Source: Ligula intestinalis (taxonomy: Eukaryota > Platyhelminthes > Cestoda > Diphyllobothriidea > Diphyllobothriidae). From it: DNA of 64,000 bases. Shown here one piece after another: positions 1-53,100 of this stretch (positions within the stretch are counted from its first letter, which is position 1; each line of letters opens with the position of its first letter). The position numbers and the translations under genes were made by a program. The notes below the pieces were generated by a model, which ran no database searches, was not told the origin of the DNA, and saw nothing but the letters and a program-made list of their open reading frames with translations. The stretch lies in NCBI GenBank assembly GCA_036362985.1, contig JAYGXS010000003.1, forward strand, positions 51,333,294 through 51,397,293, read 5' to 3'.

Positions 1-1839
1 GCCAGCAAGTCCACTATCGGTGCTGTCCTCTCGCAAACCGGCACTGACGGAGCCGAGCACCCCATCTGCTTCGCCAGTACAACCCTCTTCGGCACTGAGC
101 GGAACTACTACGTTTACCGCAGAGAGCTCCTCGCGGTCGTGACCTTCATCCGCCAATTCAGACACTTACTAATCGGTAAGGGATTCATCCTGCGCACCGA
201 TCACCAAGCCTTTAAATGGCTGGATTCATTTAAAGACCCAACAAAGCAATTTGCCCACTGGCAAGAGTTTTGCAAGACTTCCACTACAAATGTGTACACC
301 ACCCCGGCCACCTTCACAGTAATGCAGACGCCCTCTCTCGATTACCCAACGCCCCCGAACTCGATGACACACCCCCCGAATCCGTTAATGCCTTGGTAAC
401 TTCTGAACCAAACCGACTTAAATGGTCATCTGCCGAACGCTCCGACTTCGACACCTCCATCATTTACCGCCATTTAGCCGAGGGCCGGTCGAAACCGCGA
501 GAACAGGAAATGCGCGGTTCCAGCGCAAATGCACGCCTCCTTCTAAACAATTGGCCACACATTCTGATACAAGATGACATACTCTTTCATCGCGACCCCG
601 ATTCCCTTCGACTACGCCCCGTCGTCCCCAGTTGCCTCGTTGACCCTGTACTCACCCACATCCACTCAGATCTAGGGCACAGTGGAAAACGACAAACCGA
701 GTCAGCTATTCTTTCTCGCTTCTGGCGGCCACAGCTCAGGTCATCCATCGTATGATTCTGCCAAAGCTGCCCCATTTGTGCCTCACACAAATCTCCCAAT
801 CCTACCCCAAGAGCCCCGATGCAACCTATGACGACCGGTTACCCGGGAGAACGTGTTGGTCTGGACATCGTGGTTCCCTTAACCATCTCCTTTTGAGTAT
901 ACATATACATTCTCCTCCTGGTCGATTGCTTCACCAAATGGGTAGTAGCTGTACCCTTGAATAACCAAAAGGTCTCCTCCGTGGCCAATGCGGTCACCCG
1001 CACATAGATCAGCCGTTAGGGCGCACCCACTTCCTTCCATTTGGACTGCGGCAGCAATTTCGACTCCTTACTCTTCAAGGACGTTTTTCAACTCCTCGAC
1101 GTTCACAAGACCCGCACCACGCCATACCACCCCGAAAGCAATGGCCTCATTGAACGGACTAACCGCAAAATTCACAACCTCCTCCTCGCCTTCTCCTATG
1201 GCAACCACCCCCGCGATTGGGACGTTCAACTTCCGCTATGCTTACATGCCTACCGCGGCTCCACCCACTCATCGACCGGCTTCACACCCCATTACCTGTG
1301 GACTGGTCGAGAACTCCGACTCCCATCCGACCTCCGCTTTCCCCTTCCCGCACCCGACCACATCACGCTCCACTCTTACGCTGCTTGACTCCGGAAGACC
1401 ATCCGTGACACTCAAAATATCACCCGTCGCACACTCGGCACTGCCGCCCAACACCAAAAGGAGGTCTTCGACCGACGTCGCTCCGGTACCCCCTTCCAGG
1501 TCGGCGACCCGGTCTTGTACCACCGCTGCTCCCCTTCCCCTGACACCCCCACCAAGTTTCAATACTCATGGGTCGGCCCTTTCACGGTGATAGCCACCAA
1601 ATCCCCTACCACATTCCTCCTCTGTGAGACCGCACATCCCTCCCGCCATCCCTTCACCGCCCATTTCGACAAACTCAACCGATATCACGGGCCTCTCCCT
1701 CCATGTCCCCCAGAAACATCCGTTCAATTAACCGTAGTCCCTCCCGACCAGGTTCCCCCGTAGCCCTAGAAGTTACTATAGCCTCCCCCATTGTCGACAC
1801 CAGCACTGAGGACAGTGCTAACCCTTAGGAGGGGGGCCG
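1..1839 (+). pseudogene. Ty3/gypsy retrotransposon pol remnant (RNase H, integrase)
   Basis: This is the 3' half of a gypsy-type pol gene, cut by the left window edge. Frame 1 (1-300) reads RNase H: IGAVLSQ, the acidic motif RELLAVV, and RTDHQAFKWL; the first catalytic Asp would lie just outside the window. A one-base frameshift near 268 moves the frame to HHPGHLHSNADALSRLP (to 755). The integrase HHCC finger follows (HIHSDLGHSG near 655, CQSCPIC near 760). The integrase core is split over frames: VGLDIVV near 860, LDCGSNFDS near 1041 and HPESNGLIERTNR near 1130 supply the D, D and E positions. A C-terminal GPY/F-like WVGPFTVI lies near 1575. Stops and frameshifts at about 755, 893, 1007, 1017 and 1388 show the copy is dead. 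Confidence 0.93.
1822..1839 (+). other. polypurine tract of the gypsy element
   Basis: A purine-rich AGGAGGGGGG run sits immediately before the TGTAGCGACCCC that starts the LTR. This is the expected primer site for plus-strand DNA synthesis in LTR retrotransposons. Confidence 0.8.
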
Positions 1840-5250: not shown

Positions 5251-5599
5251 AATAGGATACACTTCTCTGGGAACATTAGATTTAAATTGCATTTTCAGCG
5301 CCTGATGTTTTAAGGCCAACATACCCACAGAAATCCTACTCCAGACGCCTGCTGCAATACCGCGCACCAATGGCAGAGTGGTTCTCAGCCAATCGCAGTT
5401 ATCAAAACCGGCCAATCAAATGCTAGGCTGACGCAGACATGTCCTAGCCCACATGTTCAGGTGACACCTGCACGCCTGCTCTGACGATGGCGGACATACG
5501 GCCTCGTCCGACGGCCAACTTTACCTAACCGATTATCTTTGCTTCCTGTGCTGATCGTTCATCACCGAATGTCGATTTTCCTGATCTAAACCGGCAAAA

Positions 5600-5800
5600 A
5601 AACGAGTCCGTGGCTGAATTGTTAGACCATTTGATTTCTCATCAACTAGTCGCGTGTTCGAACCTTGGATGATGCACCACATGTGGTTGGGTATGACTGA
5701 CTGATGATGGCTACTGAGCCATAAATGGTCATTCCAGCCTCTCTTGTTTTTGCCGGCCATGTTCACAATGCTCCCTGTATTGGCGAACATCATCTGCTGG
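5600..5800 (+). mobile_element. tRNA-derived SINE carrying a hammerhead-type tail
   Basis: The head resembles a tRNA: an A-box-like GTGGCTGAATTGTTAG at about 5610-5625 and a B box GTGTTCGAACC at 5654-5664, the internal promoter of RNA polymerase III genes. The tail contains a hammerhead ribozyme-like motif (5695-5739). This layout (Pol III promoter plus hammerhead) is known from the schistosome Sm-alpha repeats. The element ends near a GCCGGCCATGTTCAC segment shared loosely with other copies. Confidence 0.8.
5695..5739 (+). ncRNA. degenerate hammerhead ribozyme motif in SINE
   Basis: The core CTGATGA is intact at 5701-5707. Stem II TGGCT/AGCCA is intact. The second core box reads TAAA instead of GAAA, and the base pair next to the core in stem I is lost. 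Cleavage activity is therefore unlikely. Confidence 0.6.
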
Positions 5801-6800: not shown

Positions 6801-6945
6801 TTAGGAAAATCTATGAACAATCTGTCAGGGCTCGTGAATGAGACCCAAGGCAGTGCGGGACGAGTAAATCCCGTTAGCGATCGATTAACGTTCATCAATG
6901 AGTGTCAATATCTTCCTAACTAAAAACAAGCAAGACAACGAGCTC

Positions 6946-6975
6946 GTGGTTCAATGGTTAGATACGCTATATAGA
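6946..6975 (+). mobile_element. possible SINE head remnant
   Basis: GAGCTCGTGGTTCAATGGTTAG resembles the A-box side of the SINE head found on the minus strand at 14500-14520. No B box follows. Weak call. Confidence 0.3.
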
Positions 6976-14350: not shown

Positions 14351-14360
14351 NNNNNNNNNN
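14351..14360. other. assembly gap (10 N)
   Basis: Ten N characters directly left of the SINE at 14361. The true length of the gap is unknown, and sequence continuity across it is not assured. Confidence 1.
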
Positions 14361-14525
14361 AGACATGGGACACTAGAACGGCCATTTCTGCCTTATTAGG
14401 CGTCATCGGCTAGTGATACTCAACCCCAGTGTGGCCGCTGAAATTGCTGCTTCAACGCGTTTTGAACTCGCAATCTCTCTGGTCAGGGCGAACGTCCTAA
14501 CCGTTGAATTACGAGCTCGCGGTCT
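14361..14525 (-). mobile_element. tRNA-derived SINE with hammerhead ribozyme
   Basis: On the minus strand the head carries an A-box region (GAGCTCGTAATTCAACGG, 14501-14518) and a B-box region (GCGAGTTCAAA, 14461-14471), about 40 bp apart as in tRNA genes. The tail holds the best-paired SINE hammerhead of the window (14371-14416). It lies next to the assembly gap, so the 3' end may be incomplete. Confidence 0.88.
14371..14416 (-). ncRNA. hammerhead ribozyme motif in SINE
   Basis: Minus strand: stem I CACTAG pairs with CTAGTG (6 of 6). The core is CCGATGA (one change from CTGATGA). Stem II GCCT/AGGC has loop AATA. The box GAAA is intact, followed by ATGG/CCGT and T at the cleavage position. 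Stem III has no loop, so folding in cis would need an open form or a dimer. Stem I differs at two base pairs from the GACTGG/CCAGTC stem of sister copies while keeping the pairing. Confidence 0.78.
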
Positions 14526-15049
14526 TGCCAGTATTAGATCGGGGATATGCAGTACTCTGCATATAAAAAACATTGGAAAAATAATTAACAAACTAAGGCC
14601 AATTTATTTTGCTAATTGTTTGTTAAAAAATTCTTTACAGAATTCTCAAGTTCCACAGGCGTGAAAAAAACTCTAAATGAGACCAATAAATGTAAGTATA
14701 GTCGTCAGCTGAAATCGTATCCAGTGTCTAGGAGAAGAACATTTTCTCGTTAAATTTCTTTATCTGTACACATTTCAGGTATAGGATTACAATTCGTTTC
14801 AGATCGTTCTATAATTTCAGGTAGATTTTAAATCTTTCTTAAAAGCACTTACCGAAAACGTGGCTTTTCGGTTAGTAGTTCTTATGAAGATTTATAGTAT
14901 TCTTGAAACAAATCGGCTCCTCAGATCAAATTAACGAGACCAAATGTATGCTTAACTGCCACCCCCTTTTTGATTATGACTTTGCATGAGCTGACTCACT
15001 TACTGTATGCGTTGGACCACCTTTATTACTTGGGTGGGCCTTGCTCTAT

Positions 15050-17635: not shown

Positions 17636-17715
17636 ATGACATTGCCGACAAACAGAGGGGAGACTGGAATTGCCATTTCTGACTTATTCTCCGTCCAATC
17701 CACCAATCACTAGAA
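17636..17715 (-). mobile_element. SINE tail fragment (hammerhead SINE family)
   Basis: GGAGACTGGAATTGCCATTTC reversed gives the box GAAATGGC and CCAGTC of the SINE hammerhead. The CTGATG core is missing and no tRNA head follows, so this is a remnant. Confidence 0.65.
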
Positions 17716-18562: not shown

Positions 18563-18965
18563 GTTCGCACATTCCTGAGTGAACATATACTCGATCAGCA
18601 GTGACAGCAAATGGTAGGTGGCGAGGCGCTGATGAACTGCGGTTCGATGAAGTGCTTATGACCCATCTGATAGACACCAGTGGTGGACCAACTGCGCCGT
18701 CTGTAAGCGCGTTTGTTTGTGTTTTCCGACCAGCTGGTGTTCAGGGTTATGCTTGGCTGATGAAGGCTAATAAGCCCGAAACAGTTCTGTATCAAGTTAC
18801 CCCCAGATGCTGTCATACCCCACATACTGCTATTATGACTTGGCCGGAATCGGCCTGGCAGGCGGTCGCCCGTTGGGGACCTCTGACCACCACATGAACT
18901 TTGTTTAGTTCGGAAGCCTATTCGATCGGTGTTCGCACATTCCTGAGTGAATATATATATATATG
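18563..18965 (+). mobile_element. retrozyme-like unit with hammerhead ribozyme
   Basis: TTCGCACATTCCTGAGTGAA occurs at about 18564-18583 and again at about 18932-18951, both followed by AT-rich TATA runs, so a unit of about 368 bp is bracketed by direct repeats. A well-formed hammerhead motif lies inside (18744-18802). The 3' end (18890-18965) recurs in reverse at 28341-28413. Non-coding hammerhead units of a few hundred bp that move as circular RNA (retrozymes) are known from plants and animals; assigning this unit to them is inference. Confidence 0.55.
18744..18802 (+). ncRNA. hammerhead ribozyme (type I), well-formed
   Basis: Core CTGATGA at 18757-18763 and box GAAA at 18778-18781. Stem II is GGCT/AGCC with loop AATA and an A-C pair at its base. 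Stem III is ACAG/CTGT with a TT loop, giving a GTA cleavage triplet ending at 18791. Stem I is CTTGG/TCAAG (five pairs, one wobble), then an internal loop, then GGGT/ACCC. All catalytic core bases are as in the family consensus. Cleavage is predicted after 18791. Confidence 0.88.
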
Positions 18966-20659: not shown

Positions 20660-22346
20660 ACTACTTACTTGATACTTGATCCGATTAGCTCCTGTTGTTG
20701 GATGAATCGGCTTCACGAATGTCACGAATAGCGGCGGCCCATTGGCGGTGGTCAGAGGCGAGCTCTTCACAGATTTTAACCCATTGTTTGTTCCAATGTC
20801 GCAAGCCGTAAACGGCTACGAGGCCCATCCGTTCAACGTCCGACTTAACGGTGCTGAGCCATGTCTTCAGTTGACCGCCTTGTCGGTATCTCCAGTTTGC
20901 ACTACGAGAAGGGTTCACGATCAATCTGCATAGGTCCGTCGATGGTTTGCGCAGGACATGGCCAAACAATTGCAATCGGCGATGCTGGGTGTACGATGCT
21001 AGACGTGGTAGTTTGAAACATCTGCGGTATAGCTCAATATTGGAGATTCGATCCTGCCAGAAGACTCTTAAGAGGCGTCGAAGACACCAACGGTCAAAGA
21101 CTTCGAGCGATAGGATGTCTGCCTTTCTCACTGGCCATGTTTCACAGGCATATACTAATACCAGTCTGATTGCTGCTTTGTATATCAGCAGCTTAGTACG
21201 TAAACTGATGTCTGGCTAGCAGCCTAAATGCATTTCTAGCCTGCGCGCTTCGGTTCTTGATTTCGTCTTTGGCCTGTCCATTGGCTAGCATATTCGAGCC
21301 CAAATAGCGGAAGCAGCTAACTTCTTCAGTGGGTTGACCGCTGATAAACAGTGGTTGTGCTGCGCCCATATACGTAGTCAGGAGCTTCGTCTTGCGCACA
21401 TTAATTGTCAGACCAACAGTTGCAGCGAAGCCGGTGATTCGGTCTAGCGTTGGCTGTAGTGCTTGAGGAGTTTTACCGAGTACGACAATGTCATCGGCAT
21501 ATTCCAGGTCAGGTACTCTGAATTCAGAGCTGATTTCACATCCACTGTCGGCTAGAATTGACTGATGCATTACCCAGTCGATAAAGAAGTTGAACAGAAC
21601 TAGAGAAAGAGGGCACCCTTGTCAAACTCCACACGTCAGAGGGAAAGAAGTTGACTCTTCAACAAGGGTTCTTATTCGGGCTAATGTTGTGTCATAGTAA
21701 GCTTTGATTAGATTGAGCAACTTTGGTGGTAGACCGTCAGCAAGCAAGACTTGCCATAAAGCTTCTCTGTCGTTAGAATCAAAGGCGGTTTTGAAGTCGA
21801 TAAAACAGGCGGTGGTGATCGGTTGGTTTTGATGTCTGTGCTGTAGTATGCGGCGTAGAATGAAGATCTGGTCAATACATCCTCTACCTGGACGAAATCC
21901 TCCTTGGTTAGGACGAGTACGAAGATTGCGCTCAGTCGAAAATTTACGGAGAAGGATGGTCGCAAACACTTTGGTGGCTATATCTATGAGGCTGATGCCG
22001 CGGTAGTTTGAGCATAATGTCCTGTCACCGCGCTTCGGTATCGGTAAAATAATGGACAGTGACCAGTCAGTCGGGATGACTTCGGTAGTCCATATAGTCG
22101 AGTACAGTCGATTTAGTGATTCCGTCAAAGCAGGACAATTAGTTTGTAAGCTTCTGCTGGGATACCATCTTCCCCCGCTGCCTTCCGAACTTTGAATCGT
22201 TGTAATACTGATTCCACTTCAAATCTCGTAGGTGGCTCGCAGTCACTACCGTATGGAATTCCAGTTGATAGCTGCAGGTTCGCAAGCGGATCCAGTAGCT
22301 CGCTAAAGTGCTCTCGCCATCGATCGATTTTGCCCGCCATATCAGT
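20660..22346 (-). mobile_element. RTE-type LINE, 5'-truncated, inserted in the PLE
   Basis: Minus strand: RT from KIDRWREHF (22335), PIPKRGDRTLCSNYRGISLI, GFRPGRGCIDQIF, FIDFKTAFDS (catalytic Asp) and YADDIVVLG (catalytic DD) to the RTE C-terminal domain with FGHVLRKPSTD and GGQLKTWLSTVKSDVERMG, stop near 20685. The endonuclease is missing, so the element is 5'-truncated. Only a frameshift near 22125 and stops near 21625 break the frame. A short tandem 3' tail with AAGT/ACAAGT-like units lies at 20660-20684. AAGGTGAA(C/T)(T/A)CGT at 20647-20659 and 22347-22359 is the 13-bp target duplication. Confidence 0.93.
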
Positions 22347-22700: not shown

Positions 22701-22785
22701 GACATTTTCGTTTGTCATAGTAGGTGGATGACAAGTCTGCTTTGAATGATACTCTCGAGCCCACATTGGTTAGTGCTATAGGCAT

Positions 22786-22870
22786 AAGGACATTGCCAGC
22801 TAAGATGAAGGAGACTGGAATTGCCATTTTTTGGCTTTTTAGCCGTCATCAACCAGCTAGCCACACCCAG
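22786..22870 (-). mobile_element. SINE tail with hammerhead motif
   Basis: Reverse strand carries the SINE tail. The hammerhead motif at 22813-22858 has core TTGATGA, stem II CGGCT/AGCCA, box AAAA (for GAAA) and stem I CTGG/CCAG. No tRNA head was seen upstream on the minus strand. Degenerate copy. Confidence 0.65.
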
Positions 22871-23299
22871 CCCTAACTGTGATATTTCTTAGTCAGGACA
22901 AAATGCACCTAATCAAAATTCCCACACAACCAGAAACTACTAACGTCATACGAAGTTCCACCTTCCTACTCGAGGCTCCCTCTTTACCGATTGTACGAGT
23001 GATGGATATTCTCTGGTCTTTGACTCCCGAAAATAAATTAGTACTCAGTTCGAAATATTCTTCAGTGTGGTACTACACAAACCTCGTATGTGCGTAGGAA
23101 AGGGCAGTCCGGCTGCGCGCCCTTTTCTGGCGGTGTGAGTTTCCACATTTCGCACAATCTGATTTCACTGAAATAAATGTATCAGCCTATACAACTGTTA
23201 ACTCCACTTTCCTGCCAGCACAGGTACTGTTTAAAAGTCCGGAAATGTGCTTTGGGGTGCGGCATGACAAGTCTTCGCGCGATTCCCGTGTGCTTTATT

Positions 23300-28340: not shown

Positions 28341-28413
28341 GATATATATATATTCACTCAGGAATGTGCGAACACCGATCGAATAGGCTTCCGAACTATA
28401 CAAAGTTCATGTG
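28341..28413 (-). repeat. copy of the retrozyme-like 3' end
   Basis: Reverse complement of 18893-18965: CATGAACTTTG, GTTCGGAAGCCTATTCGATC, GTTCGCACATTCCTGAGTGA, then a TA run. The match stops at CACATGAAC, so only the 3' end is shared. Confidence 0.75.
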
Positions 28414-28455
<42 letters not shown>

Positions 28456-31729: not shown

Positions 31730-33010
31730 ATTCAATCGAGGCGTGCGACAAGGTCCTTATAAGCTGCATCTGGAATTTTTTGGACGTGGTATCTGGATGA
31801 TACCTTCGTCGTCATCGAACGAGATCATGTGCTACCGTTCAAAGAACGTTTCAACAGCATCTTCTCGGGCATACTATTTAGGATGGATGAGGAAGAAAAC
31901 AGCCATTGGCATTTCTTGATGTCCTCGTTTGCCACAAATATTGTGGAGGCCTAAATACACGATGTGAGTACTGAAATTCAGCAGCAACCACCCAATCAGC
32001 TACGCGCAGTTGCGTAAGGACGCTTCATTGGTGTGTTGAGGCGCACTGAAGTGAATCGGAAGGCAAAGCCACCGAACTGCGAGATATTCAATGGGTAGCC
32101 AGAGAAAATGGCTACCTGCACTAATTTTTCAAGCAGTACATACGTAAACGAGACGTGCGACAAAATCGCGCCGACCCCAAATTTCTGCGAGCAATTCCGT
32201 CCGTCAAAAAACGTATCGGGGGCCGTCCACCGCCTTCTCGCGCTGTTTGGAGTTAGAGTCGCACACAGACCGAAGCGTCAGATAATGAAATCAAAAGAGC
32301 CATTGCCACAGCAAGAAAAATACGGAGTCAGCTATAGGATTTGGTGCAGCTGTGGACAAAGCAACTTCGTCGGAGAAACAGTAATGCTTCTTAAAACAAG
32401 AATTAACGAAAACATGACAGCAGTGCGAACAAATACCGTCAATTCCCAAGTCGCGGCTCATTTGACGAGATCCTGCCACTTATTCGAATTTGATGAGGCC
32501 CAACTTATCGGGAGAGGAGACACTAGTGTGAGCTACGAGTTGCTTGAATCATTATTTACGGGCCCTAAGTGTATAAACAAGTGCAATGACCAGCCCAACC
32601 CGTACTCGGTGCTGAAGCTCCGTTTGACCAAAGCAATTCGTCCTTCAGGGAGCGCACAGGGGAACGCGTCTTCCAGCAATGGTGCCAGGAAGGCAGATGG
32701 TCGAGCAATCATCACGCCCAAGTCCAACACGGATGGTGAAAGTCCAGCGGGTCAGGACTCGCACGCCAGTCATTAAGCAATTAACACACAAGCAGGCATC
32801 GATTCTTAATAGCAGGAACCGTGAATTAACATAAGTGTGCAGTAGCATAGTGACTGTGGCCTGTGAATACTGCGCCTTCTTGTGTATGATGTACCTGCTT
32901 CTGCTACTGTCGCTGATGATGGATCTGCGACGGCATTCGAAAAGTCAGACGAATTAAGTTCTTGTCATAGCGATCACATCTGCTTGTTATTCTTAATTAC
33001 TTCCTGGGAT
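31730..33010 (+). mobile_element. Penelope-like element, subfamily A (RT end, GIY-YIG, 3' end)
   Basis: The most complete PLE in the window. The RT catalytic motif YLDD is at 31790-31801, followed by TFVVIERDHVLPFKERF and a stop at 31951. RT-end and linker remnants follow (SNHPISYAQ, KRDVRQNRADPK). An open frame (32108-32776) holds the GIY-YIG-type endonuclease: VSYRIWCSCGQSNFVGET, then LLKTRINENM, then SQVAAHLTRSCHLFEFDEAQ, FTGPKCINKCND and GRAIITPKSNTD. The 3' terminal segment with its hammerhead-like motif runs to about 33010. PLEs move by reverse transcription, with the GIY-YIG nuclease nicking the target. This copy lacks the RT N-terminus and is inactive. Confidence 0.88.
32910..32949 (+). 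ncRNA. PLE hammerhead-like motif
   Basis: Core CTGATGA at 32913-32919, one T, GGATCTG..GGCATTC as decayed stem II, GAAAA for GAAAC, then GTC and AGA. Both core boxes are nearly intact. Confidence 0.55.
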
Positions 33011-34356: not shown

Positions 34357-34659
34357 CTAGAAGGCATGGAGAGAGAAACGAAATGTTTTTGTGTTCTAAC
34401 AAATGAAAAAAAATTCCATCAGATTTGTAAATGTTTTAATTTGAACAGCGTTTCCACCGGGTTGGGCTTATGGCCAAAATTCTAGATACCTTGAACCGCC
34501 AGGAGCCCGTGTACGTAACTTATGGCTGAACGACAAATTGGAGGGGGTTCGAAACCTGTGATACAGCTGAAAGACTTTCACGGATGCCCACTCACCGATC
34601 GGATACGGCACGTACACACTTATCCACCGATGTTCAGACTCCCGATCGAAACTGACAAG

Positions 34660-34830
34660 ACAGTGACCGCCTGGCTCAAAAGTCAGAGCATTTGACCCCT
34701 AGCCCACAGGTTATGGGCTCGATCCTAGGGTACTGCAATACCTGAGGTTAGATATGGTTGACTGATTATGCCTAACAAATTATAAACGGCCATTCCAGTC
34801 TCCTTGTCTTTTTTGGTAATCCTGCCCATA
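34660..34830 (+). mobile_element. tRNA-derived SINE with decayed hammerhead
   Basis: Head with A-box-like CCTGGCTCAAAAGTCAGAGCA (34670-34690) and B-box-like GGGCTCGATCCTA (34715-34727). The tail has ACTGATTATGCC, TAAACGGCCATTCCAGTC (34761-34800), a decayed hammerhead that keeps the cleavage-side sequence. Confidence 0.72.
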
Positions 34831-34961
34831 ATAACCAACGATTTGCGGCTGCTGGCAGCGCTTGAGAGCGAGCTCCAAGACAGAAGAGGACGAGTGAGTT
34901 CCGTAAGGGCTCGATGGAGCGCCAATCCACCATTGCTAATACTTCAAATTAAAACCAGAAG

Positions 34962-35130
34962 GACAATGAGCCTGCGACTCAATAGGCAGAGCGTTTGACA
35001 CTCTAAACAACAAGTCCTGGGTTTGATTCCCAGCTGGCGCGACGTCTGGGGTTGGCTGACAACTGGCTGATAACGACTAATAAACCGGAAATGGTTATTC
35101 CAATCTCGCTCGTTTTTTGTTAGCAATGTT
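34962..35130 (+). mobile_element. tRNA-derived SINE with hammerhead motif
   Basis: The 72-nt head (34967-35038) is the most tRNA-like of the window: A box GCGACTCAATAGGCAGAGCG and B box GGGTTTGATTCCC at normal spacing, with no intact acceptor stem. The hammerhead-type tail is at 35064-35106. Confidence 0.85.
35064..35106 (+). ncRNA. hammerhead motif in SINE, one core change
   Basis: CTGG, core CTGATAA (for CTGATGA), stem II CGACTAATAAACCG with weakened pairing, box GAAA intact, ATGG/TTAT and CCAATC. The G-to-A change in the core should abolish or strongly reduce cleavage. Confidence 0.6.
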
Positions 35131-35554
35131 CTTCAACCGGAGGACTGTCACTTTACATCTGCGGGTCAGCAGCGAGGAATTAACAAGACTGCCAGAAGAG
35201 CATAGCTCTCAAATGACTGTCGAGGTGCACATTAGAGGGCTGGTATTCCTACTTCGCATAGCAAACTGAGGTGCCAAGTTTTTCGACTGAAAAATCACAC
35301 CTCATTGCAAAGGTCGCGTTCAGCCTTCAACTTAAGTTGCGATGCCAGTTTTGGCGTAGTACAGCGTCTTACTAGAGTACTCGCTACGGACCTTCCGATC
35401 GTCACAGGCTCCACATAACAAACACAAAAAATCCGTTTTTGCGTTGACAGTGCATCCCCGTGACAAGCACTCAGTTCCCAACGGGCCGATGGAGTTTCGA
35501 TTACACGACATCAAGTCCAGAGTAGTTGCAAATTAAGGTAAACTCTCGCCCTCG

Positions 35555-35992: not shown

Positions 35993-38645
35993 TTGTACTT
36001 GTACTTGTTACGGCTGTGATCATGCCTGATCTAGCCGGCCTCAAGGATGTCACGAACGGTACCTCTCCATGCGCGGCGATTGGCGGCAGCGGATCTCGAA
36101 AGCTCCACCCAGTCCCTTCTCCAGCGACGGAGGCCGAAGATAGAAGGTCCAAGAACTGCTTCCATGTCTTGACGGACGGTGTCTAGCCAGGTCTTCAGTT
36201 GCCCTCCTCTTCGACGTTTCCAGGTGGGCTGCGGTGCCGGGTCGAGGGCAGCATAGGTAAGCTCGTGGGGCGGACGACGGAGAATGTGTCCAAACCACCT
36301 CAGTCGCCTTTCTTGAATGGCCTGAGATATCCTTGGGATACGATCGCAGCGGATGCGGACTGTCTCATTTGAGATGAAGTCGCTATACTTAACTCGCAGG
36401 ATCATCCTCAGGCACTGGTGGTCGAAGACCTCCAGTTTTCGCTTATCTTCAGCGCGCACAGCCCAGCATTCACATCCATAGAGGAGGACTGACCAGATGG
36501 ATGCACGGTATACACAATTCTTCGTGGCGATGGAGATGTCACGTCGGATACAGAGGCGCTTTCGAAGGATTGAGAAAACCTAGCGAGCAGCATCGATACG
36601 GAAGACAATGTCGTCCTTGCTCTGCCCATTCGGTAGCAACCTCGCCCCGAGGTATTTAAAACTGTCTACTTCTTCAAGTTGATGACCATTAATCCTCAGG
36701 GGTGCCTTTTCCTGGTCAGGGATGCAGCTCGAGAAAAACTTCGTCTTTCCGGAATTTATGGACATGCCTACCGACATAGCGATCTCATTTAACCGCGACA
36801 CTACTGACTGTAGACCACCAAAGCTTGAGGCTAACAGCGCAATATCATCGGCGTAGTCAAAATCAGTTAGTCGGCGTCCGGGTGCAAGTTCAACACCGTC
36901 CTCTTCATGTAGGGCTTTGCCGAGAATCCAGTCAATGACGTAGTTAAACAGAATGGGCGAAAGGACGCAGCCCTGTCGGAAACCAGACCGGATATCGAAC
37001 GACTGAGAGAGATCGTAGTGGACCAGGACTCGTGCGGTGGTAGACCGATAGTAGGCCTTAATCATCGCAATGAGTTTGGTCGGCATTCCATCCAGTTCCA
37101 TTATCCGCCACAGGGACTCACGATGGATGGAATCGAATGCAGCGGCAAAGTCGAGGAAGCAAACGGCCGTCGGTTGCTGGTAGCTATGGCGGAATTCTAG
37201 AGTGCATCTCAGTGTGAATACTTGATCCGCACATCCACGCCCAGCTCGGAATCCGGCTTGGCTGGGTCGTGTCCTGGAGTCACGTACAGACTGGAAGCGC
37301 CTGAGAAGAACAACAGCGAAGATCTTTGCAGCAACATCGATAAGAGTTATGCCACGGTAGTTCTCGCATCTTTTCTTATATCCCTTCTTGTGGACAGGTA
37401 CAAGGATACCTTAGCCCCAGTCATCGGGAAAGGTCTCTTCTCGCCACGCCTGTACAATCACCTCATGGAGCCGAGGAGCCAGGGTGTCGACACAAGACTT
37501 GTAGATTTCTGCAGGAATACCGTCCTCTGCGCACGCCTTTTGTTGTGTAGCCTCTGCATTGCATCGGTAACTTCGTCTTCGGAAGGGAGGTCACATGACA
37601 CTGCGTAGGCAGAAGAGGGTTGAAACTCCGCTGTGGAGGAGAGGGAGGGTGTGATGGGTTGTTCTTCAAAGTTGAGTCGGTGCACGAAGTGTTCACGCCA
37701 GCGATCGACCTTGGCCGAGTTGTCGGCAATAAATCCTCCATCTACATCGCGAACAGAATCACAGAGTGTCGGGGGCTTACCACTAACCTGGCGTATGATT
37801 TGGTGCGATTTTCGGGTGTCACCAACATTAGAAGCCTGCTCCATAGAAGTCACCGTTTCGGACAAATACTTCTGCTGTTCATCTCTAGCCGACTTTGCTG
37901 TCAGCTTTCGAAGTTGGCGGAAGAAGGCATCGTTTCGGGGCCTGGCTCGAGTCGTCTCGGCCGATAGCTGCAGGGTTCTGCCGCTGATCCAGTCACTGCG
38001 ACGCCGCTGAATGAATCCGAGAACCTTCTCAGCTGCCCCATAGATGGATGTCTTCAGTGAAAGCCACTTTCTACTGCCCTCGTTGTCAGCCTGGGTCATA
38101 AGACGGGACTGGATTTCTGTGCTTAGAGCCTCCGTAGAGTTGGTTTGCCGGAGCTTTGCGAGATCAAGGCGTCTCGCACGTGGCAGTTTGGGCACAGATG
38201 AGAGATGAACCTTCAGGCGTGTGCGAACGAGAACATGGTCAAACCCGTGGACGTTACCAGTTTCGGCACCTCGCATCAACCTGCTATCGTGGACCCAGCT
38301 GCAAAACCGTGAACCAACTAGAATGTAATCGATCTGACTGGCGGTACGGCCATCGTTCGAATATCAAGTCAGTAGATGTTTGTGACGATGCTGAAAGCAT
38401 GTGTGGGTAACAAACAGTCGGTTCTGTTCGGCAAACTGTAGCATCCTCTCACTATTGTCCGTTCGAGAGCCAAGCCCAAAACGACCAAGAAGGTGGCTGT
38501 TTGTCAGGTCACCGGGCCCAGTCCGGCCATTCTAGTCCCCGGCAACAATTAGCAGATCTCGGCGAGAGAGTCGTTCGGCTAGCTCCTGCAGTTGCGAGTA
38601 GAAATTATCTTTCTCTTGCTGTGAGACCGATAGTATTAATATAAC
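35993..38645 (-). mobile_element. RTE-type LINE, long but 5'-truncated
   Basis: Minus strand. The end of the AP-type endonuclease is at 38640-38280 (DLLIVAGD near 38540, followed by a stop, then GSRTDNSERMLQFAEQNRLF and SQIDYILVGSRF). The linker runs to KVDRWREHF near 37690. The RT holds HKKGYKKRCENYRGITLIDV, GFRAGRGCADQVF, FLDFAAAFDS, FRQGCVLSPILFNYVIDWIL and FDYADDIALLA. The RTE C-terminal domain follows (FGHILRRPPHELTYAALD, GGQLKTWLDTVRQDME), stop near 36031. A tandem (ACAAGT) tail lies at 35993-36010. At least one frameshift (near 37520) and stops near 37410 and 38533 break the frame. Catalytic motifs of the RT are kept. Confidence 0.92.
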
Positions 38646-40860: not shown

Positions 40861-41400
40861 AAATCGTTCTGCGCCTGAAGTTCTGTTTCAGCAAACACCC
40901 AATCAGCTACAAACACGGTTGCAAAAGGGCGCTACATGGGTGTATTGAGTAGCACTACAGTGAACAGCAAGATAAGGTTGCCGAGTTATAATACCCTTGA
41001 CGCATGCGCAGAGCGAATAGTTACCCTAACAAAAGTGTATAGGCAAACGCAACAAAAGACTAGGCCACATCAGTCCCAATGTATCGGAGGCAACCATCGA
41101 TCGACACGCCTAAAAGCCGGCAGTACCAGTAATAATTAATCATGCCTGTTTTTTGGAGGGGGAGGGGGAGGCAGCGATTCGTCAGATGGCACCCGGTAAC
41201 ACCTTCAAGTTCGACAACGCTAAAATTCTCGCGAGAGATGACAGGCCCATTAGTCGCGGGCTGCTTGAGTCAGTCTGCAATCCATTAATCAGCGCAATGA
41301 CCTCCGACGCAACATATTCCATGCCAGGGTGTTACCTGAACAAATTTCTGGCGCAGAGAGCGCCCCGGTAAACACCACTTCCAGTGAAACAGTATAAGGG
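40860..41400 (+). mobile_element. PLE subfamily A remnant
   Basis: SKHPISYKHGCKRAL at 40890, VAEL, stop and YP near 40985, a decayed linker, then NTFKFDNAKILARDDRPISR and GLLESV at 41200-41275. The order matches the RT end, linker and post-GIY-YIG segment of other copies. The endonuclease core itself is deleted. Confidence 0.7.
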
Positions 41401-42012
41401 GGTCAAAAGGTCGAACAGGTATTGGGCCAATAATCAACTAGTGTGATTATACTGTGGTAATTAACAACTGCGATGTGGGCCAAGAGTAGTCATCGCAGCA
41501 TGAATATTCCTCTTTAATTAAAAAAATGAGCCTCTATATTAGGAGAGGCATGGGAGCGCGAACAACCGCATGAAATATGTACTACAACCCTTGTGTATCA
41601 ATTAGCTTCATCCCTATGCTGTCTCGGACGGTAACTTCGTGTGGGAACCGGAAATGCCGGGCAGACAATCCTTTTGTTCCAGCGGAAGCACCCCTCTTTC
41701 TCGATGACCTTAATCGGAGCAGATCATACTTAATTTGTTATACACGCCTGTAGAATCCTAATAGACTTATGGTTGAGGAGAAGGAGGAAAAGAAGTAACC
41801 TAGGTGTACTGACTGCATAGCAAATATGAATCCATTTGTCTGAGAAGTAGACGCGACCTCTGGGATAAGAACTTTATTCACTTGACGTTTAGAATTCCAG
41901 CTCGAACCTATTTTCAGAGGCAGCATCAGATAAGGGTAATCTGGACATGAAGAATTGCAAAAGTCATAGAATGCAATCGCTAGGCTACTGTGTACCTATG
42001 ACAATTAACGGT
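40982..42012 (+). repeat. 1-kb duplicated block, copy 1
   Basis: Nearly identical (about 98 percent in 41040-41830, counted by eye) to 46123-47151 in the same orientation. It spans PLE coding remnants, unassigned sequence, and a minus-oriented PLE 3' end. Confidence 0.9.
41840..42012 (-). mobile_element. PLE 3' end, inverted relative to the coding remnant
   Basis: Minus-oriented terminal segment with the hammerhead-like motif at 41881-41920 (core CTGAAAA, AAAC, GTC). It is head-to-head with the plus-oriented remnant on its left. Inverted terminal arrangements are known for PLEs. Confidence 0.7.
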
Positions 42013-42053
42013 TCGCCAATAGAGGAGAATATCCGAGATCCAGGAGGCAGTTT

Positions 42054-42500: not shown

Positions 42501-43075
42501 CTGGGGCCCATATGGTCGCTTTTATTGGCATCTGGCTGTATGCCTCAATCGAGGGGGATACGGTTAAGATTGAATCTTTAGTGTTGTCAGAAAATGAATA
42601 GGCCGCGGTCCTATATACATTGGCGATCATAGTATTCGTCACTAACTGAAATAAGTTCGGGGCCGTTTTGACAGCATATTTCCTGTACATATAACAATAA
42701 TTAGACAGACAAATTATCACTTCTTCCGTACAAGATGAAAACTGAGAAACCGCTTCGCGCAAAAGCTTCATTGGCTGAGTTTCTGCAAATGAACTGGACC
42801 CTGATTACTGAGAAGACATTGGGGTATATCGTTTTAGAACGATAAACAGCTGGTCCAATTGTCCACAGTGAGTATAAAGAACTGTGGCGAATTAAATTCT
42901 TGACGGTCGGTTCCTCCCCTCTCTCGTTGCTGTTCTAAGGAGGCCCCGTAAATGCGTTTAGAGTAATGTCCCTTTTTGTCGCATTTTGTAAAATACCCCA
43001 CTTGCCAACTTGATGATTTGCGAACAAACGGCGAGAATACTCAATCAGACAAGTTAATAGATAGTATTACCGGCA
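42500..43075. other. no recognised gene
   Basis: Intron DNA with no recognised element. Confidence 0.35.
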
Positions 43076-43145
43076 AACACTAGGGAGGCTGGAATGGCCA
43101 TTTCTGGCTTATAAGCCGTCGACAGTTAGTCATTCCCAGACCCAA
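43075..43145 (-). mobile_element. SINE tail with hammerhead motif
   Basis: Reverse strand: the motif at 43087-43131 has stem II CGGCT/AGCCA with a central TATA, box GAAA and ATGGCCAT intact, but core CTGTCGA in place of CTGATGA. No clear tRNA head. Confidence 0.65.
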
Positions 43146-43339
43146 GTGGTGCCCCACTCGAGCCTCCAACCGATGTTAGCATGAATGAGGCAGTGGACGT
43201 CAGATAGATGGCAGGCACTGAAGCTACCCTCCACCCCAATTTGCCAAGCCTCCAGCACCTGCCGTCCTTTGGTGAATGAAGTACATCCAGCCTTCGCTTG
43301 TTGCTGACACAATGGCTCAGCCCCGGTGCTCAGCCAAAA

Positions 43340-46122: not shown

Positions 46123-47151
46123 CGAGTTATAATACCCTTGACGCATGCGCAGAGCGAATAGTTACCCTAACAAATGTGTATAGGCAAACGCAACAAAAGA
46201 CTAGGCCGCATCAGTCCCAATGTATCGGAGGCAACCATCGATCGACACGCCTAAAAGCCGGCAGTACCAGTAATAATTAATCATGCCTGTTTTTTGGAGG
46301 GGGAGGGGGGAGGCAGCGATTCGTCAGATGGGACCCGGTAACACCTTCAAGTTCGACAACGCTAAAATTCTCGCGAGAGATGACAGGCCCATTAGTCGCG
46401 GGCTGCTTGAGTCAGTCCGAAATCCATTAATCAGCGCAATGACCTCCGACGCAACATATTCCGTGCCAGGGTGTTACCTGAACAAATTTCTGGCGCAGAG
46501 AGCGCGCCGGTAAACACCACTTCCAGTGAAACAGTATAAGGGGGTCAAAAGGTCGAACAGGTATTGGGCCAATAATCAACTAGTGTGATTATACTGTGGT
46601 AATTAACAACTGCGATGTGGGCCAAGAGTAGTCATCGCAGCATGAATATTCCTCTTTAATTAATACATGAGCCTCTATATTAGGAGAGGCATGGGAGCGC
46701 GAACAACCGCATGAAATATGTTCTACAACCCTTGTGTATCAATTAGCTTCATCCCTATGCTGTCTCGGACGGTGAGTTCGTGTGGGAACCGGAAATGCCG
46801 GGCAGACAATCCTTTTGTTCCAGCGGAAGCACCCCTCTTTCTCGATGACCTTAATCGGAGCAGATCATACTTAATTTGTTATACACGCCTGTAGAATCCT
46901 AATGGACTTATGGTTAAGGAGAAGGAGAAAAAGAAGTAACCTAGGTGTACTGACTGCATAGCAAATATGAATCCATTTGTCTGAGAAGTAGACGCGACCT
47001 CTGGGATAAGAACTTTATTCACTTGACGTTTAGAATTCCAGCTCGAGCCCATCTTCAGAGGCAAATCAGATAAGGCTAATCTGGACATGGAGAGTTGCAG
47101 CATTTATAGGATGCAACCGCTAGGCTATTGCATACCTATAACAATTAACAG
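46123..47151 (+). repeat. 1-kb duplicated block, copy 2
   Basis: Direct copy of 40982-42012 (offset 5141 bp). Its left edge cuts off abruptly inside PLE sequence that continues leftward in copy 1. Confidence 0.9.
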
Positions 47152-47473
47152 TTACCCCTTCACCTGCCGAAATTCTAGCACCTGTTTTGAAGGTTAACGT
47201 GGTGATTGTTCGAAAACCTGGCTAACCGGCAATGGCGTTGGAAAGTGTGTTTGCCTGCGTGCTCCCTGAGGGGCTCATTGCCTTGACCAAACTAAGTCTC
47301 AGCACCGTATATGGGTTAGGGAGATCAGTGTACTTCTTAATAGGTTGGGGAGCCCGTAAAGTATGACTGAAAAAAAAACGCGGGCCTATACGATTGTCAC
47401 CTACCACGAGAATGTCGGTCTTATCGGACCTGAATGTGTGGCAGAGTCTCGTTGAATGCCGGCCATCAATCAA
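46985..47473 (-). mobile_element. PLE subfamily A, minus strand (C-terminus and 3' end)
   Basis: Minus ORF 47473-47222 reads HSTRLCHTFRSDKTDIL, then PIKKYTDLPNPYTVLRLS and SPSGSTQANTLSNA. The C-terminal tail and 3' end follow, with a hammerhead-like motif at 47022-47061 (CTGAAGA, T, GGGCTC..GAATTC, TAAAC, GTC). Confidence 0.78.
47022..47061 (-). ncRNA. PLE hammerhead-like motif
   Basis: Minus strand: CCT, core CTGAAGA, T, stem II partly paired, TAAAC for GAAAC, GTC, AAG. One box base is lost. Confidence 0.55.
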
Positions 47474-50105: not shown

Positions 50106-53100
50106 GGTTCCCAAGCAGCAAGCCTTCACGATGGTGGAACCGACTGTACCCATCTCCGGAAGGAATCACCTCCGGACGGAACTATCTCCATATGGACCTA
50201 TCACCGGATGGACTACAGCAAAGAGCTGCACTTCCCTTACCCCTCCCCCCCCATACCAAAATTTGCCAGTATACATGTTTCTATCTCTCTATCGTTTTTT
50301 CGAGAATGGATCTTCTTCATCCGGCGAGGTTGATCCGAATCCTTCTTCTTATTGCCGGCGTCGAGCCCAATCCGGGACCTGATCAAGGATCCATCAGATG
50401 GTTCTGTTCCACCTGCGCCAAGCAGATCTATCCAAACCAAGCCTGTGTCTTGTGTGGGCCTTGCAATAACTGGCAACACTTCCGCGAAAGAGGCACTAAT
50501 TGCTCGGATCTCACTTCCATCCGTCAATACAGCGGCTCATCATACAGGTGCATAACCTGTCGTCATCCACGAAATGTGCCTGCTCACACGCCTGTACGAG
50601 TGCTACCTCCACCTGCCTCATCATCACCTCTTGCAAGTTGGCAATCAACCCAATTACCGTCATCTCTAATGTCATTGTCCACGACTTCAGCCTCGACACT
50701 ACCCTCACTGCCACCACCGCCTATGCCGCGGTCCGCCACGACTCAGGCTGCCTCACAACAACCCTCAGTACCGCCGCCGCTTATACCGCTGACCGTCCCA
50801 GACGCCTCACCACTTTCTGACCTCAAAATACTGCAGCTGAACTGTAATGGCCTTTCTGGGAAAACAGATGAGATCATTAAACTCCTCCATGATCATGAAA
50901 TCAAAATAGCGGCTCTCCAGGAGTCAAAACTGTCAGAAAAGTCGAAGGTCCCACGTTTCCCAGGCTTTGCCGCCATTGGAAAAGACAGAGCTCGTAACGC
51001 CGGTGGTGGACTGGTCACCTTGGTTCACCAAAGTATAAAATACTAGGAGCTGACCTCTGCAGCAACATCCGCGGACTCGCCGCTGGAAGAGCTCAATGTA
51101 CAAGTTACCATTGGACCGTCCAATCAGAGTGTCCATAACGCATACCTTCCTCCACAAAGCAGTTGTGATGCCAACTTCAGGCCATCAATAGCGCACATGC
51201 TAACGGGTGATTCGAAACTCATCTTGGGCGACTTCAATGCCAACGATGACTTATGGTTCTCTAGCCTTTCCTGTACTAGAGGTGCTTCAGTAGCCGAGGA
51301 GATCAACAACACCAACTTTGGGGTCTTCAACACGGATGGAACGTCCACGAGACTTCCCGTTCAAGTACTTGCGTTAGCCCTGACATTTCCATCGTAAGTT
51401 GCGACCTATTATTATCAACCTCATGGGACTATCTATGTAAACTGAGCTCTGACCATCTCCCGATAGTTATCACAATTAGCACACATGCTTCCCCGATTCG
51501 TCACGCGCGCAAGTGGTTTATGAATCTACGTAAAGCCAACTGAGAATCTCTTTGATCAAGCCCCTTTCCCTCCAAATGTCCGCCAGAGAGTATCGATTTT
51601 CAATCACATCATGCATACCGCCTCTAAGCACAACATTCCTGCGGGCAAGGTCTTTGGTCCCATCCCAGGATAACCTTCTGATGCGGCCACCTTATCAAGA
51701 GAACGTGACGTCACGCGGGCTCAAAACCCTCAACACCCGTCGTTGCCGGCCATGACCTTAGAGATCTCCCGACTGGTCAATGAACACAAGAGGACCCTAT
51801 GGCAAGAAAAGCTAGCCACTTTCTTTAGGCGCACTAACACCAGCAAGTTATGGCAAACAAACAAATCCATCAGTAGAAGAGCACCTGCTCCTTCCAGCCA
51901 GGTTATCAAATTCAATGGTATACCGATGAAGACCGACAGGGACATTGCCAACCAAATCAATGTGCAATTCACCACGGTTGCAGGCCATAAATCCTCGAAG
52001 AATTCGAGGATCGTCAAACACAGGTGGCGCAAACCTTTATTGATGCCGCTCCAATTCTCAGCTCATGATACCACAACCGCGATTAAGCGTGCTAAGAACT
52101 CTAAGGCGTTTGGACCTGCCGACATTACGATGGTACACCTAAAACACCTAGGCCCCAGAGGTGTCGAATTCTTGACACTGTTGTTTAATCTTTCTCTAGC
52201 CACGTGCCATATACCAGCTATCTGGATAATGGCCCATATCCTCCCCAGCCACAAAGCAGGTAAAGACTCCGCTGTCTCTGACAGTTACCGCCCGATCTCG
52301 CTTCTTAGCCCGGCCGTGAAAATACTTGAGCATCTCATTCTCCCCTTGCTCAATAGACATGCCAACCTCCAGGAGCACCAACACGGTTTCAGAGCTTTCC
52401 ACTCTACGACATCAGCCCTACAGCGCGTCACGGACCGCATTGCATGTGGATTCAACAAAACGAAGCCTGCAGACAGAACAGTAATGGTCGCACTCGACCT
52501 CACTAAAGCTTTTGACTCGGTTAACATTGACGCCTTGATGACATCTCTCATGGAACCGTCTCTACTGAAGGAGCTCTGCAGATGGCTGAACTGCTATCTC
52601 CGTGGCAGACAAACGCGAGTCGAATTTTCAGGCACGCTATCCAAAGCCCGCAACTCTAGGACAGGAATTCCTCAAGGTTCTGTCATTTCGCCATCGCTAT
52701 TCAACATCTATATTGCTGACCTCCCGAATCCCCCTCCCTGAAGTCGAAATAGTGTCTTACGCCGATGACATCACCCTGCTGTCCTCTCACCAGAACTTTC
52801 GCATGGCTGCCGATGCCTTAAATAACTACATCCCCAGTTTAGTCCGGCACCTAGACGATAAGTATCTGAAGCTATCCACGCCCAAGTCCTCAGTAACTCT
52901 GTTTACTCCGGACCCCAACGAACACAAGTCCCATCCTCCAATTAAAGTGGAGGGCAATGACATTTCTTTATGTCAGTATCCTAAACTCCTGGGCCTCACT
53001 CTCGACCCGACGCTGGCTCTACACCGCCATGCTGACATCCAAGCCAGCAAAGCCAAAGCCAAGCTCAACACCCTAAAAGAATTGGCAGGTTTTTCTTGGG

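Follow-up and report, generated by a model that had tools for sequence, protein, structure and literature searches.

Small retroelements which carry hammerhead ribozymes are already known, some of them in flatworms. The Sm-alpha and Sj-alpha repeats of schistosomes are described as SINE-like and tRNA-related, with a type I hammerhead, a length of several hundred nucleotides and very many copies (PMC2770079, PMC8490949). In these respects they resemble the repeats analyzed here; the accessible parts of those descriptions mention neither a palindromic loop-free stem III nor head-to-head pairs, and the likeness is one of description only. The non-LTR retrozymes of mussel, coral and axolotl, in the available accounts of them, also consist of tandem units of 170-400 nt with type I hammerheads. 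The present repeats differ from them in the possible presence of a promoter-like head in two families, A and B, and in their stem III, a palindrome of greater length (8 and 10 nt) that has no loop. Penelope-like elements (PLEs) are the third related system. According to the accessible part of one report, they form partial tandem units, and in Anolis the enzyme was seen to cut both strands and extend them, to begin reverse transcription internally, to favour AT-rich DNA and to insert without hammerhead cleavage in vitro (PMC11167929); the repeats described below appear to share these features. The minimal hammerheads of PLEs may cut as dimers, as may be the case here, and their role is called 'still a mystery' in the accessible part of a review (PMC7761336). 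The repeats possess two 3' sites about 115-125 nt apart, in contrast to the 30-40 bp 'tail' given in the accessible account of PLEs. PLEs encode a reverse transcriptase and a GIY-YIG endonuclease; a unit of 308 or 368 nt has no room for them, and the A, B and C units could be at most non-autonomous passengers of a PLE. Among the literature matches listed, there was no tapeworm SINE with a hammerhead and no SINE moved by a Penelope-like enzyme. Two features seem to be new, the persistence of a palindromic stem III without a loop in different families and the head-to-head insertions.

The window, which is the whole 64-kb stretch of DNA analyzed, was compared with itself by BLAST. A common sequence was found at 5.7, 14.4, 17.7, 22.8, 34.8, 35.1 and 43.1 kb on mixed strands (for example 83 bp at 79.5% between 5.7 and 43.1 kb, E ~1e-15, and 173 bp at 67% between 34.8 and 5.7 kb, E ~4e-9), and the sharing of one sequence by these seven places, proposed in the preliminary description, was borne out. 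These copies were assigned to family A (Table 1). A further fragment of leader and head, overlooked before, was detected by nhmmer with a profile made from the seven window copies (E 1.6e-8), and part of it (6921-6962) also by the unit profile (E 1.5e-5). All seven window copies have a broken core, changed at C3, U4, A6, G8 or G12 or worse, and are fossils. The only intact hammerhead core of the window belongs to a different family, C, and had also been missed. Both ends of the family-C element repeat 27 nt of the unit, and (TA)n then follows; these 27-bp repeats were considered as a target site duplication (TSD) and rejected, being within the unit, with one found also at 28.3 kb.

Table 1. 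Repeat copies, hammerheads and related features in the 64-kb window.
Feature	Position	Strand	Details
Family-A copy with head	5575..5756	+	unit 184..363; hammerhead 5695-5739, G12 -> T (TAAA)
Family-A leader/head fragment, no hammerhead	6893..6962	+	
Family-A copy of the preliminary description	14361..14549	-	unit 183..356: leader, tRNA-like head, hammerhead
Hammerhead fold of the 14.4 kb copy	14371..14415	-	stem I fully paired; stem II 4/5 pairs
Family-A hammerhead remnant, broken core	17645..17709	-	within-window BLAST and core check
Family-C element	18563..18957	+	395 nt (unit C 174..568); 98% identity to unit consensus
Complete family-C hammerhead	18751..18797	+	GCTTGG CTGATGA AGGCTAATAAGCCC GAA ACAGTTCTGT A TCAAGT; core intact
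Family-A hammerhead remnant	22802..22856	-	TTGATGA, G12 -> A; profile match 22783-22880
Family-C 3' fragment	28347..28416	-	unit C 131..200, 97%, (TA)n on both sides
Family-A tandem dimer	34634..35117	+	unit 182..666 = 1.57 units
tRNA-like head of the dimer's second unit	34968..35041	+	Rfam tRNA 24.0 bits
Family-A copy, 5'-truncated	43070..43171	-	hammerhead 43087-43131, A6 changed (CTGTCGA)

The copy at 14.4 kb, which had been placed at 14361..14525, is real; it lies on the minus strand and covers 14,361-14,549. It shows 65% identity to the young family-A unit consensus, and a gap of 10 N at 14,351-14,360 adjoins it and removes its 3' part. Its stem I is CACTAG/CTAGTG and pairs, in agreement with the compensatory change claimed for it, and stem II is swapped as well (GCCT/AGGC versus GGCT/AGCC), which had escaped notice. 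Stem-II pair 10.1-11.1 is C-A, and U4 is replaced by C (CCGATGA). The window was also scanned for hammerhead folds with a descriptor blind to family, and 20 dinucleotide shuffles of the window served as control. The top three folds were at 18,751(+), 14,371(-) and 5,695(+), with scores of 14, 12 and 11; shuffled windows never reached 14 and gave 0.05 folds per window at 12 or more and 0.2 at 11 or more. The scores at 43.1 and 35.1 kb (9 and 7) were at chance level, and the remaining three family-A copies were absent among the best 25 folds of the window. A chance fold was rejected on the basis of these shuffle controls along with the stem-I pairing of the family-B places described below.

Between family-A copies, homology extends beyond the hammerhead and from there back into the 5' leader, shifted by about 303-308 nt. 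The ribozyme therefore sits inside a repeating unit some 308 nt long, and is not the tail of a SINE, as had been supposed. The unit length of 308 nt was taken from a young tandem copy (L050). Of the family-A segments, 14 of 124 cover 320 or more unit positions; the 124 are 129 less five C-bearing segments, and an apparent tandem in L051 is a C copy that adjoins an A copy. In L051 (1-565), the family-C copy (to unit position 64) passes into family-A CTTTGTCGG..., possibly by a template switch. Family C forms a tandem at 369-nt spacing in L100, and unit C is 368 nt. In the window, the 34.8 and 35.1 kb copies read through as a continuous stretch (34,634-35,117); the unit profile matches 34631-34930 and then 34933-35201. 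Each of the two units, which are 58% identical, has a hammerhead with G8 changed, and they are most simply a single old insertion of 1.57 units arranged head-to-tail. As a separate observation, the family-A leader CCGACAAAGCAA (unit 200-211) is complementary to the post-hammerhead TTGTCTTTGTCGG (unit 43-55), with 12 pairs and one gap, and 8 of 5000 shuffles were as good; leader-to-tail similarity was also better in the inverted (179) than in the direct (168) orientation.

At genome scale (644 Mb in 2,377 contigs), at least three families were found in place of the single one first assumed. Family-A cores of the form CTGATGA-N10..18-GAAATGGCCAT occur 2,389 times exactly in the whole genome (1,165 + 1,224), and the reversed pattern not at all. 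Family B, the sister of A, was first met in the random sample of stretches; its 27-nt pattern of stem II, GAAA and stem III has 19 exact places in the genome. Exact 45-nt family-C hammerheads number 566, and the controls for B and C each gave 0. The hammerhead families are real, and family C at least is young. The fetched family-A sample comprised 19 places with the G12 variant, which are a biased set, 20 randomly placed 10-kb stretches, and 60 stretches around places among the first 100 listed for the pattern, all on contig C1. Of these 60, the first 20 were mostly selected because their cores resembled the consensus, and two inverted pairs and one tandem pair are among them; the remaining 40 (L060-L099) follow list order.

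The proposed hammerhead structure was confirmed at the level of the consensus, which keeps CTGATGA and GAAA. Among 19 copies from the window and the random stretches, each core letter is the majority letter (13 to 19 of 19), and the core is wholly intact in one; the type I core (CUGANGA, GAAA, U16.1 and position 17 not G) is present in the consensus but not in most copies. Position 17 is T in 14 and C in 4 of 18 family-A copies from the window and random stretches, and G17 is present in L002 and L004. All 19 family-B places were fetched; their pattern fixes stem II, GAAA, U16.1 and stem III, while any letters are allowed in stem I, CUGANGA and position 17. At least five of the six stem-I pairs are formed in 17 of the 19 and all six in 11, with the outer pair 2.6-1.6 being C-G in 11 and G-C in 5. 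CUGANGA is intact in 11 and lost in 8. Position 17 is A in 7, T in 7, C in 4 and G in 1, which fits the hammerhead rule 'not G'. The exactness of family C in 566 places is a consequence of the chosen pattern.

Between families A and B, five of the six stem-I pairs are replaced by other Watson-Crick pairs, and without selection on the fold this would be difficult to account for. This comparison is much stronger than the covariation within family A, which was assessed in 108 distinct copies. These are what is left of 112 once four belonging to B or C are taken out, and 90 of the 108 came from loci retrieved with a pattern fixing the core and stem III. Pairing-preserving changes had been expected in both stems I and II, and they were found in stem I, where 24 double changes stand against 12.5 +- 3.0 in shuffles (reached by 1 of 1000, kinship of copies not being modelled). 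In stem II they were at chance level (23 versus 20.0 +- 2.8; 183 of 1000). Stem III was likewise not beyond chance (4 versus 1.6; 69 of 1000), and when only the 18 copies of the window and the random stretches were used, stem I gave 4 double changes against 1.7 (58 of 1000). The covariance-model search with the Rfam hammerhead families, which had been suggested as a check, gave no match in the window at the curated gathering thresholds. The best score in the window was that of HH9 at a family-C copy (24.9 bits versus 52) and the best over the fetched loci was 25.8 bits against the threshold of 52; family-A hammerheads never reached E 1 in the 28 loci which hold them. HH9 (RF02275), a conserved amniote motif, is the best Rfam model for both C and B, at 21.9-25.8 bits versus 52. 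The family-B stem I CUGCAG/CUGCAG is the consensus stem I of HH9 (L025 2730-2803(-), 21.9 bits). Minimum free energy folds of seven sequences (six copies and the consensus) did not recover the hammerhead.

Stem III is ATGGCCAT in family A and ATACGCGTAT in family B, both perfect palindromes, and ACAGTTCTGT in family C, a near-perfect palindrome with TT at its centre. The stem III of Sm-alpha has a loop. The loop-free stem III and the idea of cutting as a dimer or from tandem transcripts, both put forward earlier, agree with the palindromes of A and B. A single RNA would close such a stem poorly, having no usable loop, and two RNAs could close it; dimeric cutting is therefore a probable mode. 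The sequences suggest that efficient cutting would need two hammerheads, from two RNAs or from two units of one RNA, paired via stem III. According to the accessible parts of the literature, the hammerheads of newt and axolotl are reported to cut as dimers (PMC6155905, PMC7229834, PMC7761336).

The heads of A and B look tRNA-like by eye, and the family-A consensus carries GGTTCGAATCT, which resembles a Pol III B box. The head at 35.1 kb matched the Rfam tRNA model below the gathering score of 29 (E 1.4). No tRNA match was found on A, B or C heads in the 45 fetched loci scanned, and ARAGORN identified 0 tRNAs in the window and 0 in L001-L008. The derivation of the repeats from a tRNA is thus weakly indicated, and a Pol III promoter in the heads of A and B is possible on weak grounds; it is putative and is not extended to C. 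A tRNA match above threshold (45.3 bits) was seen in a random stretch at L026 6912-6990(-).

The ends of the copies were compared with the cleavage site, which is at unit 32|33; C-bearing segments and ends at the edges of fetched stretches were omitted from the counts. The 3' ends of family A peak at unit 69-71 (21 of 119), about 37 nt beyond the cleavage site. In all, 78 of 119 lie at unit 50-79, where older copies may merely lose similarity, and 5 of 119 lie near the cleavage site at unit 30-39. The 5' ends peak at unit 180-189 (21 of 120), and only 1 of 120 is within unit 26-40. As the 5' ends avoid the cleavage site, most copied RNAs were probably uncut and reverse transcription probably began inside the unit; insertion of hammerhead-cut monomers was rejected as the main route on the same count. 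The apparent start of L018 at the cleavage site was due to the limit of the fetched DNA and was rejected. Of the 19 rows tabulated for family C, 11 have their end at unit 70-76 or 200, L103 and L104 among these sharing their flanks. Tails of (AT)4 or longer follow 9 of 30 family-A segments of at least 85% identity, against a background of 10 in 10,000 random 36-mers; these nine are all at least 94% identical and end at unit 71 or 173-187. Exact flanking repeats of at least 7 nt were found 6 times versus 1.9 expected among 98 copies, which is a weak TSD signal.

Opposite family-A segments not more than 15 bp apart were counted as pairs. Ten of them are head-to-head and none tail-to-tail, and family C gave 4 and 0 among 8 fetched loci; the two-sided sign test for 14 versus 0 is 1.2e-4. 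In this count, L046 and L055 of family A were fetched owing to two close cores and L101 of family C was fetched as a pair, while four of the family-A pairs come from the 40 list-order stretches. Two further head-to-head pairs, outside the count of ten, were found by profile in the random stretches L024 and L026. In 9 of the 10 family-A pairs the partners overlap in unit coordinates and are therefore not two halves of one unit-length RNA. In L043, L046 and L055, each partner retains its own 3' end and (AT)n. Segment ends overlap at the junctions by up to 7 nt in A and 14 nt in C, suggesting joining via short homologies.

We regard these repeats, with a confidence that is about even, as short retroelements, non-coding and non-autonomous, which make up three or more families and whose RNA is mostly inserted uncut, likely by a Penelope-like enzyme. 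The tRNA-like heads of A and B may act as a Pol III promoter. Reverse transcription would start at a fixed internal site, 36-42 nt or so beyond the cleavage site, or at a second site about 115-125 nt further on, and would cross the hammerhead and either stop variably or enter a second unit. Copies joined 5' to 5' would arise when both strands of a single target break prime cDNA synthesis. The ribozyme would act on transcripts that are multimeric or read through, and would be dispensable for insertion. A PLE would be the likeliest mobiliser, because the head-to-head pairs match the extension of both strands shown in vitro. This reading is made less certain by L054 and by the heads without tRNA matches. 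In L054, unit 242-291 lies inverted and contiguous beside 293-481 with one tail. LINE twin priming yields 5' inversions, and L054 looks like a classic one.

An ordinary tRNA-type SINE moved by a LINE, similar to Sm-alpha, would explain L054 directly, and such an origin is unlikely but the foremost of the alternatives. In that case the hammerhead would trim read-through RNA, and the pairs would arise by twin priming or nested insertion. The tRNA-like look of the A and B heads, the (AT)n tails and the short TSD-like repeats above chance are in line with it. So are the 41 of 120 5' ends at unit 280-307, which would represent the common 5' truncation, some of them possibly being loss of similarity. 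Sm-alpha itself is described as SINE-like with a hammerhead in the accessible sources (PMC2770079, PMC8490949). The pairs speak against it: the overlap in unit coordinates argues against twin priming of one unit-length RNA, the double 3' ends of L043, L046 and L055 are unlike twin-priming products, and nested insertion predicts tail-to-tail pairs equally often, of which there is none among 14.

A strict metazoan non-LTR retrozyme, in which multimers are cut, a ligase closes the monomer into a circular RNA and the circle serves as template, is distinctly unlikely. The units of 308-368 nt, their head-to-tail repetition and the fit to a type I hammerhead fall within the retrozyme description of 170-400 nt tandem units. 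A circle would explain the copies which cross the cleavage site, and the longer-than-unit copies could be extra rounds on it. Retrozyme-like repeats are also reported in platyhelminths, among others, in the part of the source available (PMC7229834). Against a circular template, the units of a single insertion are non-identical in the two young cases at hand (L050, 96.6%; L043, 97.7%); private changes common to the tandem units, as a circle would give, are too few in these two cases to tell. Metazoan retrozymes are moreover said to lack promoters in the accessible part of the source (PMC7761336), and A and B may have one.

It is still less probable, and in our view very unlikely, that the palindromic stem III pairs two Pol III RNAs and that a Penelope-like enzyme copies both into one AT-rich target, extending each target strand. 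A satellite or other DNA-level repeat with an incidental hammerhead-like fold can practically be dismissed: the core is not intact in 7 of 7 window family-A copies and 18 of 19 window and random copies, but this is outweighed by the 566 exact complete family-C hammerheads, the stem-I covariation and the 'not G' at position 17, by the dispersed insertions with fixed 3' ends, and by the family-B set, on which this explanation was judged already refuted.

The window region is retroelement-rich. Fragments of reverse transcriptase (PF00078) along with an integrase zinc-binding domain were found at 21622-22128(-), 36580-37101(-), 51743-52738(+) and 270-752(+). An open frame of 222 aa at 32108-32773(+) resembles by eye the GIY-YIG endonuclease of PLEs; it matched no Pfam family at 1e-3, and NCBIfam gave noise only. 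A segment of 497 bp at 61784-62279 matches its reverse complement at 98.6% identity and forms a large near-perfect palindrome. A direct repeat of about 1.03 kb (40982-42013 and 46123-47153) is 96.5% identical, and a cluster of related repeats surrounds it at 41.8-47.7 kb.

Taken as a system for study, this single genome has hammerhead insertions in the thousands whose ends can be read and which show a head-to-head bias; they fall into three families with different stem III sequences, each palindromic or nearly so. Two questions become testable now: do hammerheads work as dimers in vivo, and do such insertions come from two RNAs copied into one break? If the pairing of two RNAs through stem III proved true, two cDNAs would be joined 5' to 5', so that the dimer interface of the ribozyme would shape the insertion.
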